From IMG/VR virus record IMGVR_UViG_3300030380_000259, positions 1-55,909 of that record: a stretch of 55,909 nt of DNA; one strand, given 5' to 3'. The stretch's first letter is position 1. Every line of letters starts with the position of its first letter. This DNA is from a virus. Shown here piece by piece: positions 5,511 through 9,167 of the stretch. The position numbers were made by a program, and so were the translations under genes. Under the pieces are notes generated by a model. That model searched no databases. It saw only the letters and a program-made list of their open reading frames with translations, and was not told the DNA's origin.

Positions 5511-5588
5511 TTAAATGATTACAGTTAAAATGTTATTGGCAAAGGAATTATTTAAGGAATAGTTAACTATTTCAGTTTAACTGTTATA

Positions 5589-5617
5589 ATTATACCAGTT
5601 TTTACAGGAAGTGTCAA
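5589..5617 (-). promoter_or_regulatory. Consensus sigma70 promoter of the late (minus-strand) block
   Basis: Reading the minus strand, TTGACA (5617-5612) is separated by exactly 17 bases from TATAAT (5594-5589). Both hexamers match consensus perfectly, and the spacer is optimal. Transcription would begin near 5582 and run into the zinc-ribbon gene at 5510 and the late genes beyond. With no phage RNA polymerase gene seen, host polymerase must read this. A weaker plus-strand TTAACT-N16-TATAAT overlaps it (5563-5590). Confidence 0.85.
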
Positions 5618-6003
5618 GCCCTCAAATAGGAAATAGGTAAAGTTTTTCTCTATCTATGTATAAAATAGGAAAATATTCTATAATAGTGAGTATAAAAGTA
5701 TCAGTTGTAGTTGTGGTTAACACTTAATTTACCTAATCTGTGTATTTATTCATGCACATATACGCACTACCCCCGTGTGGCGCATGCACGACCCCTTCAT
5801 CTGTCGATGAAGACTGCCCCAAAAGTCTGATTCAGCAACATTTTCCATAGAAAATGCTAGGAAAACCAAGTGTTTCAGTAGTTAAAACTACTGTTATGGT
5901 ATCAGTCGTCACTCTTCGAGTGGTTTGTAAAGTTGTAAACTAGGGATTTGTAAAGAATTTACAATGCCGATGCTTGGCTTCTTCATTCATTTATGAATGG
6001 TCA

Positions 6004-6022
6004 AAGTCCGCTGACGGACTAA
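6004..6022. repeat. 19-bp palindromic element, copy 1
   Basis: AAGTCCGCTGACGGACTAA. The core AGTCCG-ctga-CGGACT is a 6-bp stem with a 4-nt loop in RNA or an operator-like palindrome in DNA. Copies at 6714-6732 (last two bases differ), 7229-7247, 7432-7450 and 8710-8728 share the same 17-18 bases. This copy lies in the non-coding array between the divergent blocks. Confidence 0.9.
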
Positions 6023-6212
6023 CCCTAACACCTTTGGTGTTGTAGAAATACCACATCCCCTGTTGCAGTTGGGCAACACCTCACATGGGCGCAGTTTGGC
6101 GCAGGTACTTCGGAATAACAAGTTATTCCTGCAGTCACATGAAACGGCAGGGGCAGAGGATGGCGCATCACATCACGGAAAACCGACCACTTATTTCTCT
6201 CATATTTTCTAC

Positions 6213-6270
6213 GTGTTATATAAATATTAATCACAACTTGTTGTGAGTAATTAATATTTATTTATAACAC
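6213..6270. repeat. AT-rich inverted repeat upstream of the first early gene
   Basis: Outer arms GTGTTATA...AAATATTAAT (6213-6231) and ATTAATATTTA...TATAACAC (6249-6270) pair with a 2-base bulge, and an inner hairpin TCACAAC-tt-GTTGTGA sits at the tip. The right arm contains the -10-like TATAAC of the early promoter, so cruciform formation or protein binding would interfere with that promoter. A related arrangement occurs at 7166-7220. Confidence 0.75.
6241..6268 (+). promoter_or_regulatory. Putative early promoter (TTGTGA-N16-TATAAC)
   Basis: TTGTGA (6241-6246) and TATAAC (6263-6268) are 16 bases apart, followed by ACTTAA. The same design, TTATGA-N16-TATAAC-ACTTAA, occurs at 7193-7220. Transcription would start near 6275, leaving a short leader with GGAG 7 bases before the ATG at 6291. 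The duplication of element, spacing and downstream bases is the main support. Confidence 0.6.
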
Positions 6271-6290
6271 TTAAAATATGGAGATAAAAA

Positions 6291-6896
6291 ATGACAACAT
6301 CAAACTTCAAAAACTTCGCCACTCAGCTTGCTGAAGCTCCTAATACTTTAGAAGCCAAAGGCTTAGTGTTATCCCGTTGGGATAAATCTATTGTTTCTTC
6401 GGAGAAGAAAACATGGAAGTCTTTGACTTCTAGAGGTGGATTTTGGTTCTCCCTTGGAGAAGTTCTGTCTGAGATTCTAAAAGAATCTGGTGGTAGCAGA
6501 ATGGACTCAGCAAAGCTGAAAGACGCTAATCTTCATACCGTTGCAAAGCAACGTAGAAACGAAGCTATCAAGTTCTTTCAGAACTTTGACTTGATTGAAA
6601 ATCAAAAGCTGACTACCAAGTTTCAATCTATGACTAGATTGATTAGTGGTGTCAATGCTATTGTCAATCCAAAGGATGACAAGCCAACTGAACCAGAGGT
6701 TCAAAATGATGGTAAGTCCGCTGACGGACTAGATGAACCAAAGGTTCAAGAGGTCAAAGCCTTTACACAACTGAACGCTGAAGAAATCGCTTTTGAAGCG
6801 TTGCTTCAATGTGAAGTAAACAATATTCCTGTTAAGGAATTTATGTTAGCTCTCAAAGACCAACTACAGTTGGTTGACCAAAAGGCAGTAGCATAA
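6291..6896 (+). CDS. First early gene, unknown protein encoded by hairpin-saturated DNA
   Basis: 201 residues, no recognised family. The N-terminal half is mixed charged with WKSLTSRGGFWFSLGE at about 42-57 and a basic patch (KQRRNEAIKFF). A linker at 123-150 is Pro/Glu/Asp-rich (KPTEPEV, DEPKVQEV), and a helical tail follows. GGAG precedes the ATG. The nucleotide sequence is extraordinary: 15 perfect hairpins with stems of 6 or more occur in 606 bases, including 6369-6385, 6394-6410, 6472-6488, 6539-6553, 6570-6586, 6793-6809 and one spanning the stop codon (6886-6903). The palindromic element at 6714-6731 is translated in frame as KSADGL. The product may be a takeover protein, but that rests only on position. 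Confidence 0.8.
   Translation: MTTSNFKNFATQLAEAPNTLEAKGLVLSRWDKSIVSSEKKTWKSLTSRGGFWFSLGEVLSEILKESGGSRMDSAKLKDANLHTVAKQRRNEAIKFFQNFDLIENQKLTTKFQSMTRLISGVNAIVNPKDDKPTEPEVQNDGKSADGLDEPKVQEVKAFTQLNAEEIAFEALLQCEVNNIPVKEFMLALKDQLQLVDQKAVA
6714..6732. repeat. 19-bp palindromic element, copy 2 (inside a gene)
   Basis: AAGTCCGCTGACGGACTAG, in frame in the first early gene and read as KSADGL. It is flanked symmetrically by two further hairpins of the form TGAACC-nnn-GGTTCA (6689-6703 and 6734-6748), which encode the near-repeats EPEVQ and EPKVQ. The protein region is a low-complexity acidic linker where insertions would be tolerated. Confidence 0.85.
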
Positions 6897-6930
6897 GCTA
6901 CTGTCTAACTTTTTTATTGGAGATAAAACT

Positions 6931-7164
6931 ATGCGTAATCCACAAGCTACGTCATTCATTCGTAATTTCAACGCAAAGCGTATCACTTCATCATGGAACG
7001 CTACAGACGAAGCCTATGGCTTTGCCGTCTTTCCTGATAGAGATAACACTAAGCCATTCTGTTTTCGGAGTGGGCAAGCAAAAGCTATGGCTGATGAATA
7101 CAAGCGCAAACAAGCTATGCTTGACAAAGCTGAAGCAATGGCTATACTGGATTCACTACTTTAG
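6931..7164 (+). CDS. Small early protein of unknown function
   Basis: 77 residues, starting at ATG 6931 with GGAG 8 bases upstream; an overlapping 86-residue frame starting at 6917 lacks a ribosome-binding site. The product is charged and helical in the C-terminal half (QAKAMADEYKRKQAMLDKAEAMAILDSLL), with an N-terminal part containing FGFAVF-like hydrophobic residues. No family recognised. It is cotranscribed with the first early gene and is followed by an AT-rich inverted repeat. Confidence 0.65.
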   Translation: MRNPQATSFIRNFNAKRITSSWNATDEAYGFAVFPDRDNTKPFCFRSGQAKAMADEYKRKQAMLDKAEAMAILDSLL

Positions 7165-7165
7165 A

Positions 7166-7220
7166 GTTATAACATAAAATAAATAAGAATGTTTATGATT
7201 ATTTATTTTATTTATATAAC
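7166..7220. repeat. AT-rich inverted repeat with promoter-like core
   Basis: GTTATA (7166-7171) pairs with TATAAC (7215-7220), and TAAAATAAATA (7175-7185) pairs perfectly with TATTTATTTTA (7200-7210). It starts 2 bases after the stop of the preceding gene, so the RNA hairpin could terminate that transcript. The right arm carries TTATGA-N16-TATAAC (7193-7220), matching the promoter at 6241-6268, so the element may both end one transcript and start the next. Confidence 0.7.
7193..7220 (+). promoter_or_regulatory. Putative second early promoter (TTATGA-N16-TATAAC)
   Basis: It has the same spacing and -10 hexamer as the element at 6241-6268 and the same following bases, ACTTAA. It would drive the non-coding segment 7229-7450 and the gene at 7462. 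The -35 is a weak match to consensus, so activation by a factor or use of the palindromic element next to it is possible. Confidence 0.5.
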
Positions 7221-7228
7221 ACTTAACT

Positions 7229-7247
7229 AAGTCCGCTGACGGACTAA
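7229..7247. repeat. 19-bp palindromic element, copy 3
   Basis: AAGTCCGCTGACGGACTAA directly after the putative promoter at 7193-7220, in a position to be the first hairpin of the transcript or an operator. Identical to copies 1, 4 and 5. Confidence 0.9.
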
Positions 7248-7431
7248 CAAATTGAAAGGTTTTAAAATGTAGCGAAAATCTAATGGCAAAAAAAGTGTGA
7301 GTAGGTTCGCCCCATGTGAATTGAAAGCTATGCCAAGCAAGGTGACATGGGGGCATACCGTAAAAGTCTAGGCGGTATGTAGGCAGTGATGCGACCACGT
7401 AAAAAGCCTAGCATCCTTTAACTTCGTTACC

Positions 7432-7450
7432 AAGTCCGCTGACGGACTAA
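7432..7450. repeat. 19-bp palindromic element, copy 4
   Basis: AAGTCCGCTGACGGACTAA, immediately followed by the GAGAGGA ribosome-binding region of the 7462 gene. In RNA the hairpin would sit just upstream of the ribosome-binding site and could influence translation or processing. Confidence 0.9.
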
Positions 7451-7461
7451 GAGAGGACATT

Positions 7462-8088
7462 ATGAAAAAAGAATTTGAAATGGAAATTGCTATCAAGAAT
7501 ATTATCGCTATCAGACGCAAGGCAAAGCCTGAAGACGTAGCAGACGGTATCGCATGGTATGCAAAAGCATACGAGGAGTGCCGTATCATTGCTGAGAGAT
7601 TCGACTTGCCATTGCATATGGTAGTGGGTGTAGTTTCTGCTTTGTCACCCAACAATCGTTGGGCAACTAACATAATCAATGCGAGAGATGTTATCGAGAC
7701 ATGGGATTGTGGCTATGCCCCTGATACAGTTTCCGTATGTACTTACAATGCCATGAAGCTAAAAGCCTTTGCCATCTTAGATGGTGGTAGCAAAACCATT
7801 GATGAAGTAAAAGCTATCTTGAATGGCAAGAAAATTGTATGTTTCTTTGAGAATATACTAGGTGAGGACACTTGCACGATTGATGGTCATGCTCGTAACA
7901 TTGCATACAATCAACGTGTCAATCTTACAGATGCTAAAACTAGCATAGGCAAGCTAGAGTATGCCAATCTACAAGAAGCATATTTGCAAGCGTCAAAGCG
8001 TTGTAGCGTCAATGGCAGACGCTTGAAAACATACGAATTGCAAGCAATTACATGGGTCACATGGAGAAAGATGCACAATATTGCATAG
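7462..8088 (+). CDS. Conserved phage protein, possible DNA glycosylase-like fold
   Basis: 208 residues. The segments VVSALSPNNRWATNIINA (about 57-74), KIVCFFENILG (124-134) and CTIDGHARNIAY (138-149) form a pattern I recognise from unannotated phage proteins. The LSPN...W..N and TIDGHA arrangement is reminiscent of helix-hairpin-helix DNA glycosylases, but I cannot confirm this and no catalytic residue is certain. GAGAGGA precedes the ATG. Several 6-bp-stem hairpins are also present in this coding region, for example 7558-7573, though fewer than in the first early gene. Confidence 0.7.
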   Translation: MKKEFEMEIAIKNIIAIRRKAKPEDVADGIAWYAKAYEECRIIAERFDLPLHMVVGVVSALSPNNRWATNIINARDVIETWDCGYAPDTVSVCTYNAMKLKAFAILDGGSKTIDEVKAILNGKKIVCFFENILGEDTCTIDGHARNIAYNQRVNLTDAKTSIGKLEYANLQEAYLQASKRCSVNGRRLKTYELQAITWVTWRKMHNIA

Positions 8089-8099
8089 GAGATTTGACA

Positions 8100-8249
8100 A
8101 TGGTGATAAGACCTGTTAATCCTGTTGCTAAAGCAATGGCACTAAGTCGTAGACGGCAACAGGTTGTTCCTAACAAGAAAAAGTATAATCGAAAAAAGGA
8201 TAAGAATTATGCAGATACGATTAGAGAAAATGAAGTCTTTAAAGACTAA
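8100..8249 (+). CDS. Small basic early protein (49 residues)
   Basis: The start is taken at ATG 8100 (MVIRPVNPVAKAM), 8 bases after AGGAG; the frame is open further upstream but overlaps the previous gene. The product contains RRRQQVVPNKKKYNRKKDK, a basic pattern seen in other marine phage small proteins (NPVAK...VVPxKKxYxRK). Function unknown; the charge suggests RNA or DNA contact. Confidence 0.65.
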   Translation: MVIRPVNPVAKAMALSRRRQQVVPNKKKYNRKKDKNYADTIRENEVFKD

Positions 8250-8340
8250 GCCACGCAAGTCAAAGCGTGATGAATGGAAGCGTGCGCGTCAAGCAATGCG
8301 TAAGGCAAAGAGAAATTTACAGGAGAAAATCTATGCTTAA
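8209..8340 (+). CDS. 43-residue basic early protein
   Basis: Read from the sequence: ATG 8209-8211, preceded by AAGGA at 8-base spacing, to TAA 8338-8340. It overlaps both neighbours (41 bases with the gene before, 8 with the gene after). The product is very basic and helical, with KTKPRKSKRDEWKRARQ and KAKRNLQEKIYA. Nothing indicates a specific function. Confidence 0.55.
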   Translation: MQIRLEKMKSLKTKPRKSKRDEWKRARQAMRKAKRNLQEKIYA

Positions 8341-8707
8341 AAATGGAATGAGAGTTCGCGTATATTGGAATTTACACAAGAATAAATATTCAGTACAAGA
8401 TGCTAAGACTAACCGAGTTGTAGCTCATGTAGGTGCTATCGCATTGCAAAACTGTAAGCTTACTATTCGTAAATCAGGACAAGAACGTGCTAGACGTGAG
8501 GGCAGGAAAAATGTGCATGCTTTTGTCACAGGTATGTTCTATACTGATGGGCGTTACAAAAACGCATGGTGGAGTGATGGAGCTAGACAAGTTTCATATA
8601 ATCCGTACAAGAATGACACGTTTATGCGTGAGAACAAACCAATTCACACGTCACCCACAATTACTATGGGTACGCATGAAGACCGTCCAAGTGTTTGGGC
8701 AATATAA
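8333..8707 (+). CDS. Conserved phage protein of unknown function
   Basis: The start is at ATG 8333 (MLKNGMRVRVYWNLHK), 7 bases after AGGAG; an upstream extension to 8267 would overlap the 43-residue gene completely. The 124-residue product carries RVYWNLHKNKYSVQ (8-21), VVAHVGAIAL (30-39) and a basic GQERARREGRKNVHAFV segment (51-67). This VYWNLHKxxYSV...GRxNVHAFV arrangement is familiar from myovirus and podovirus genomes without known role. The palindromic element follows immediately after the stop. Confidence 0.7.
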   Translation: MLKNGMRVRVYWNLHKNKYSVQDAKTNRVVAHVGAIALQNCKLTIRKSGQERARREGRKNVHAFVTGMFYTDGRYKNAWWSDGARQVSYNPYKNDTFMRENKPIHTSPTITMGTHEDRPSVWAI

Positions 8708-8709
8708 CT

Positions 8710-8728
8710 AAGTCCGCTGACGGACTAA
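8710..8728. repeat. 19-bp palindromic element, copy 5
   Basis: AAGTCCGCTGACGGACTAA in the gap between the genes ending at 8707 and starting at 8757, followed by a strong AAAGGAG ribosome-binding site. This is the last copy seen; none was noticed in the replication or late regions. Confidence 0.9.
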
Positions 8729-8756: not shown

Positions 8757-9167
8757 ATGACTATACAAACTATTACTTTTCACAAGCGTTCAACAGGTAA
8801 AACAGGTCAGGTGCTTGCATCGCCACAGGTAGAAGCTAAATTAGCTAAAGTCGAAAGACTATATGCTGAGTATCATGGTGTTAAGCTAGGACGTGGCAAG
8901 CTATATGACATCGTATTGGACGCATCACGTCAAGCTAAAGAAGAGGTTGGCGGTTATTTGCAGTACACTACACAAGCCGTTGTAGGTATTGTGCTAGAAC
9001 ATATGCACAGAGAGCTTGGCAAAGCCGTAAGACGTAAGAACAGAGATACCATAGGTATTGAAGTTGGTGAATTTACTATTGTTAATCTGCGTAGTCTTGC
9101 ACGTAATACCAAAGGTAAGGTGTACGATGCCAACGGCAAGCGCGTATTGAAAGGAAAGGTGGCTTAA
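8757..9167 (+). CDS. Early protein of unknown function
   Basis: 136 residues, basic, with a helical central region (KLYDIVLDASRQAKEEVGG) and a C-terminal beta-like part (DTIGIEVGEFTIVNLRSLARN). It is preceded by AAAGGAG at ideal spacing. The stop TAA shares its last base with the next start (TAATG), indicating translational coupling. No family recognised. Confidence 0.65.
   Translation: MTIQTITFHKRSTGKTGQVLASPQVEAKLAKVERLYAEYHGVKLGRGKLYDIVLDASRQAKEEVGGYLQYTTQAVVGIVLEHMHRELGKAVRRKNRDTIGIEVGEFTIVNLRSLARNTKGKVYDANGKRVLKGKVA

Follow-up and report, generated by a model that had tools for sequence, protein, structure and literature searches.

The window analysed here is a stretch of 55,909 nucleotides, positions 1 to 55,909 of the IMG/VR virus record IMGVR_UViG_3300030380_000259. 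Judged by its PolA and its syntenic replication module, the window belongs to a marine phage of HMO-2011 type. Its PolA shares 69.6% identity (over 100%) with the polymerase of Puniceispirillum phage HMO-2011 and 64-65% with those of roseophages CRP-345 and CRP-1, and the matches to its primase, polymerase and RNR follow the gene order annotated in HMO-2011. The locus of interest lies at the divergence point between leftward and rightward genes, at which the GC skew also changes sign. Two divergent candidate promoters overlap at 5563-5617, the leftward one with a TG before its second hexamer. Downstream of them, a non-coding leader, a 201-codon gene that we designate hapA, and the ribosome-binding site of the following gene are filled with small perfect hairpins, among which are set two long hairpins and the first copies of an 18-bp dyad (Table 1).

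Table 1. Features of the hapA locus and the evidence on which each is placed
Feature	Coordinates	Strand	Evidence
Candidate rightward promoter of sigma-70 type (TTAACT-16-TATAAT), ahead of the array	5563..5590	+	consensus match only
Candidate divergent leftward promoter, TTGACA-17-TATAAT (12/12)	5589..5617	-	consensus match only
Mini-hairpin array core, 27 perfect stems of 6-8 bp, from leader through 201-codon gene to RBS of next gene	5795..6928	+	scan, shuffles; pooled profile of 37 loci
Non-coding leader, 9 perfect hairpins	5795..6200	+	scan; stem conservation in relatives' leaders
Individual leader hairpins	5795-5812, 5839-5856, 5876-5893, 5948-5964, 5984-5999, 6005-6020, 6027-6041, 6061-6078, 6112-6129	+	scan
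Dyad copy 1, leader	6004..6021	+	repeat search, relatives
Long imperfect hairpin directly upstream of hapA Shine-Dalgarno	6201..6280	+	folding; also folds in most relatives examined
Tenth non-coding hairpin, tip of the preceding long hairpin	6231-6246	+	scan
hapA, 201-aa all-helical protein, 15 hairpins inside	6291..6896	+	codon shuffles; homology and fold searches; structure model
Dyad copy 2, inside hapA, encoding near-invariant S-x-x-G of a disordered linker	6714..6731	+	repeat search, relatives, disorder prediction
RBS hairpin, Shine-Dalgarno GGAG in loop, upstream of start at 6931	6912..6928	+	scan; loop and Shine-Dalgarno analyses
Second long hairpin, A/U-rich, in gap after gene ending at 7164, directly before dyad	7163-7222		folding
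Dyad copy 3, after the long A/U-rich hairpin	7229..7246	+	repeat search, folding
Dyad copy 4, just upstream of start at 7462	7432..7449	+	repeat search
Dyad copy 5, upstream of start at 8757	8710..8727	+	repeat search

An earlier reading of the sequence had counted about 25 perfect hairpins between 5795 and 6903, and every one that it named is present at its stated position. When a hairpin is defined as a perfect inverted repeat with a stem of at least 6 bp and a loop of 2-6 nt, a scan finds 26 that start in this interval. Dinucleotide shuffles of the same interval contain 1.57 ± 1.23 (maximum 7, n = 500) and the rest of the window genome has 1.86 per kb, values close to the chance rate of about one per kb that had been estimated, and the array lies far above both. 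Fifteen hairpins lie inside hapA, as originally counted, compared with 2.24 ± 1.38 (maximum 8) in 1000 codon-preserving shuffles, and in this comparison none of the 38 other ORFs of the window is similar. The ten hairpins assigned to non-coding DNA correspond to nine in the leader and one at the tip of the long hairpin before hapA. The array crosses the coding boundary without regard to it, and the stop codon, which had been placed within a hairpin, is a TAA (6894-6896) in the loop of the hairpin at 6886-6903. Only the proposed extent needs revision: the enrichment at 5795-6903 is real, but in the pooled relatives described below it fades only by about +4 kb. The original prediction is confirmed, and the effect is stronger than it stated. 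Chance, low complexity or an assembly artefact, in favour of which we can count nothing, is refuted by the shuffle tests and by the independent recurrence of the array in isolates and metagenomes, and its probability is negligible. An Rfam search of 5795-6903 assigned the array to no known RNA family, returning a single weak CRISPR-repeat match at chance level (E 0.32). Farther downstream, in the gap ahead of the gene at 7462, a weak Rfam match to GP20-b RNA (7351-7410, + strand; 31.7 bits, gathering threshold 36.2; E 3e-4) spans the full length of the model.

HMO-2011, CRP-1 and CRP-345 each possess a hapA homologue with hairpins in both the gene and its leader, and IMG/VR scans added homologues with protein identities as low as about 25%, giving several dozen loci. 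All hapA-carrying relatives examined show the array, weakly in a few cases (e.g. L036-L038, L043), and thus homologues keep the stems together with the protein, where their loss would have spoken against the array. In a pooled profile of 37 loci, hairpin density is about 1-3 per kb far upstream, jumps to 10-15 per kb at -500 relative to hapA, is 10-18 per kb over most of the leader and gene, dips at -200..0, where the long hairpin stands, and reaches background near +4 kb. Between genomes, GC content is correlated with neither hairpin density nor stem length and was rejected as a driver of either. The densest gene was seen in an A-T-rich relative (L088, 5020-5640), with 21 hairpins in 558 bp and stems of up to 10 bp. 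Eight HMO-2011-type genomes without hapA contain no such hairpin region in the parts examined, and a search of genome contigs found no host or prophage copies. All array genomes checked belong to one polymerase clade, their polymerases being 59-71% identical to that of the window, compared with at most 54.6% for phages lacking the array. Because the polymerase identities split in this way, the co-occurrence of array and hapA may reflect shared descent from one gain in one clade.

The hairpins are uniform in shape rather than in sequence. Relative to a control in which the same arms are tested at a spacing of 20-59 nt, the over-representation is 5-12 times for maximal stems of 6-7 bp that enclose 2-4 nt and only 1.8-3.3 times for 5 bp stems, and loops of 6 nt or more are near background. 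The GC fraction of triloop stems falls as the stem lengthens, from 0.45 at 5 bp through 0.41 and 0.33 to 0.26 at 8 bp, a trend that selection for a threshold stability would produce; enrichment climbs steeply at about -10 kcal/mol of RNA stacking, beyond which it plateaus. Stem sequences differ among hairpins, a common sequence occurring only in the GTCC-N6-GGAC dyad.

Comparison of stem and non-stem sites in 16 close pairs revealed that stems evolve slowly. Divergence in the leader is 4.6% at stem sites and 9.3% outside stems (p = 1.7e-11), and at third codon positions of hapA it is 8.4% in stems compared with 14.6% elsewhere (p = 4e-8), both p values being optimistic in that sites were treated as independent. 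The arms of distant pseudo-pairs, which served as a control, are not conserved. Paired changes that keep Watson-Crick complementarity, such as CACTCTTTAGAGTG/CAGTCTTTAGACTG and ACAAGCAAAGCTTGT/ACCAACAAAGTTGGT, occur among relatives, and one-sided changes outnumber them, with 75 yielding G-U and 61 A-C in near symmetry. The claim that the array answers to nucleic acid structure rather than protein is borne out by these compensatory changes, by the slower evolution of stems and by the homologues that keep both.

These data bear on the proposal that the hairpins have no function and are made and repaired by a mutational process, in which template switching, promoted by transcription or RNA-DNA hybrids, perfects quasi-palindromes. 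Template switching is described as able to create and maintain RNA hairpins (PMC8794818), and in DNA with high transcription, RNA-DNA hybrids are described as promoters of quasi-palindrome mutation (PMC3820800); both perfect stems and compensatory changes would follow from such a process. Neutral, unbiased arm-to-arm copying would yield compensation, however, and not a lower substitution rate; since the rate in stem bases is about half that in loops and neighbouring sites, neutral template switching alone is insufficient, and this speaks against the purely mutational origin offered by the original prediction. A functionless hot spot would have stems no more conserved than their neighbours, which is not what we find. 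The excess of one-sided over compensated changes and the placement of Shine-Dalgarno sequences and start codons relative to hairpins, described below, also argue against this origin, which we regard as very unlikely. Computation instead shows an array that is real, conserved, selected, directional and uniform in geometry, in which perfect stems of 6-7 bp closed by loops of 2-4 nt are maintained by selection at a density of 10-18 per kb in both coding and non-coding sequence.

A perfect stem is identical on both strands, and therefore only loops, wobbles and surroundings inform on the strand in which the structures act. After normalisation for triplet frequency, loops of GNA type on the + strand are commoner than those of TNC type (84/5962 vs 25/4598, p = 9e-6), and loops of purines are commoner than loops of pyrimidines (p = 3e-7 overall, 1.4e-4 within the leader). 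Hairpins containing G-U pairs, at -4 kcal or lower, reach about 1.9 times control on the + strand and 1.3 times on the - strand. The Shine-Dalgarno core lies wholly in a loop at 25 of 180 starts and wholly in a stem at two. Many of the former are hairpins of C(GGA)G form whose stems differ. Between the start codon and about +18, stems are under-represented. RNA stacks account for stem choice better than DNA stacks, by a log-likelihood of +6.2 for 5 bp and +2.5 for 6 bp stems, with no difference at 7 bp. Base pairing exceeds the shuffled expectation across coding and non-coding sequence alike, the pattern associated with genome-scale ordered RNA structure (GORS). From the strand asymmetries we infer that it is the sense strand that folds into these structures, most likely as mRNA, and that the array probably acts in the sense transcript. 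Other observations point the opposite way: Watson-Crick pairs are much preferred over G-U pairs of equal RNA energy, and this poor acceptance of G-U, with the near-equal numbers of one-sided G-U and A-C changes, is unusual for selected RNA and argues against it. UUCG loops are absent, and RNA folding z-scores do not differ between the strands.

The structures might alternatively act in single-stranded sense-strand DNA, for example a non-template strand displaced in an R-loop, or in a D-loop at an origin near -500, in which case hairpin density would follow how far the strand is opened. The strictness of Watson-Crick pairing, the compact 2-4 nt loops, the directional decay of density from a fixed start and the location of a composition switch point at the array onset are all consistent with this, as are the GNA triloops, which are very stable in DNA. 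The better fit of RNA stacks, and the Shine-Dalgarno sequences in loops and open start codons, which are features of mRNA, weigh against it, and the origin near -500 is putative. We consider action in DNA quite unlikely; RNA is the more likely form.

The long hairpins form a separate element. Nearly every relative folded has one between about -110 and the hapA Shine-Dalgarno sequence, and the -150..0 window of hapA has a mean folding z-score of -4.6 (35 loci). The sequences of these hairpins are too diverged between relatives to align, and the folds are those of single sequences. A/U-rich stretches similar to the second long hairpin of the window precede dyads in relatives. RNase III processing, one of the roles originally suggested, is plausible for the two long hairpins of the window, which could be RNase III sites, but not for the array, in which stems are only 6-7 bp; stems of that length are too short for RNase III.

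The predicted structure of HapA is all-helical (pLDDT 79) with a basic N-domain. Sequence searches of Pfam, PHROGs and PDB and fold searches of PDB and BFVD returned a single credible match, a viral entry at 50% identity taken to be HMO-2011's own orthologue; thus no known protein family or fold was assigned, and no relatives outside this phage group were detected in these databases. HapA seems to be mosaic, its C-terminal 45 residues being nearly identical between the window and L009 (5950-6549) and its N-terminal domain diverged.

Superimposed on the generic hairpins, and sharing their geometry, is the dyad AAGTCCGCTGACGGACTA, present in five copies in a single orientation over 6004-8727. 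Most array genomes contain some 2-8 matches to GTCC-N6-GGAC; one usually lies in the leader and another in the hapA linker, with the others spread to about +4 kb, and copies beyond array territory are almost absent from the loci and flanks analysed. No match was found in L009 or L102; the latter seems to carry a changed dyad. Outside the leader and hapA, 81 of 101 dyads are followed by a Shine-Dalgarno sequence and start within 60 nt, compared with 24% at random positions, most often at a dyad-to-start distance of 19-22 nt. The middle six bases of the dyad change in concert within genomes, and HapA residues 115 and 122 co-vary with its fifth base. On a tree from which helix 114-125 was left out, this co-variation spans about five label changes, two of which are forced by well-supported branches. 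Residue 115 is T in all 22 A-class proteins (A..T fifth pair) and S in the five GATGTC genomes, and residue 122 is R, K or H in the A-class as opposed to mostly N in the G-class (G..C fifth pair). Because these residues change with the dyad, the sequences suggest that helix 114-125 reads it, most naturally as a double-stranded DNA operator. HapA is thus probably a sequence-specific binder of GTCC-N6-GGAC dyads and a regulator of that operon.

We favour a reading in which the array structures and shields the early transcript near its 5' end. The mini-hairpins would divide the early transcript, as it is made, into small units that each fold on themselves, and so may shield it from single-strand-dependent events such as RNase E/J attack, Rho loading or re-annealing as R-loops. 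Ribosome-binding sites would be left in loops or open, and HapA, the first gene product, would bind the dyads of the same territory and regulate the operon. The main rival is that HapA itself uses the hairpins, binding small hairpins of RNA or single-stranded DNA with no sequence preference and nucleating at GTCC-N6-GGAC, the array being a multivalent scaffold comparable in principle to the dispersed packaging signals of RNA phages. Array and hapA always co-occur over the same interval, the dyad is shaped like a generic hairpin, the N-domain is basic and the helix residues co-vary with the dyad, all of which speak for the scaffold. Against it, the co-occurrence may be one-clade descent, co-variation between an alpha-helix and a palindrome resembles operator binding that would be unable to read generic hairpins, and no fold match to an RNA binder was obtained; we think the scaffold unlikely.

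None of the known systems compared fits the array. GORS and MS2-type RNA phage genomes share pervasive selected pairing in coding and non-coding RNA, whereas the array is found in a double-stranded DNA phage, is limited to some 4.5 kb within a single early operon, where it sets in and decays sharply, and consists of uniform, strictly Watson-Crick hairpins of 6-7 bp and 2-4 nt. The stoperators of mycobacteriophage L5 resemble the dyads in that a specific site is repeated many times across the early region, often a short way before a start; unlike the dyads, L5 sites are asymmetric, HapA has no detected repressor homology, and the generic hairpins have no counterpart there. The virion RNA polymerase of phage N4 uses hairpin promoters with a 5-7 bp stem and a GNA-type triloop, a similar geometry, but array hairpins occur in dozens of copies inside genes and lack a common stem sequence, and such promoters were rejected. 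T7 early mRNA carries RNase III processing hairpins; the long hairpins before genes may be sites of this kind, and the array stems are only 6-7 bp. CsrB-type sponge RNAs also have serial hairpins in a leader. A corresponding CsrA-type decoy role for the array is not supported: its loops share no binding motif, and GGA is found in only 20 of 233 triloops, mostly as Shine-Dalgarno sites. We found no description of such hairpins in the literature examined on this phage group, and the main survey of HMO-2011-type phages mentions no hairpins, palindromes or inverted repeats.

We put at about even odds the overall interpretation that the stretch in the window is the densest part of a selected mini-hairpin field on the immediate-early rightward transcript of one HMO-2011-type clade, with HapA as regulator. 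More tentatively, and with some doubt, a double-stranded DNA phage clade may mark its early mRNA with a dense structural code that is free of sequence, is concentrated toward the 5' end and is read or exploited with HapA, the dyads pacing the same interval; if true, early transcripts would here be controlled or protected through structure in a way that is new. At this locus, selection for a uniform texture of secondary structure is strong and can be quantified over kilobases of a double-stranded DNA phage operon. The trait belongs to a dominant marine virus group, abundant among ocean viruses of bacteria, and the locus points to an unstudied protein, HapA, with a co-evolving putative binding site. 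Cultured phages with the trait (CRP-1, CRP-345, HMO-2011) and without it (CRP-2, CRP-603, HTVC033P) form a natural test system for the role of local mRNA hairpins in stability, R-loops, Rho action and translation.
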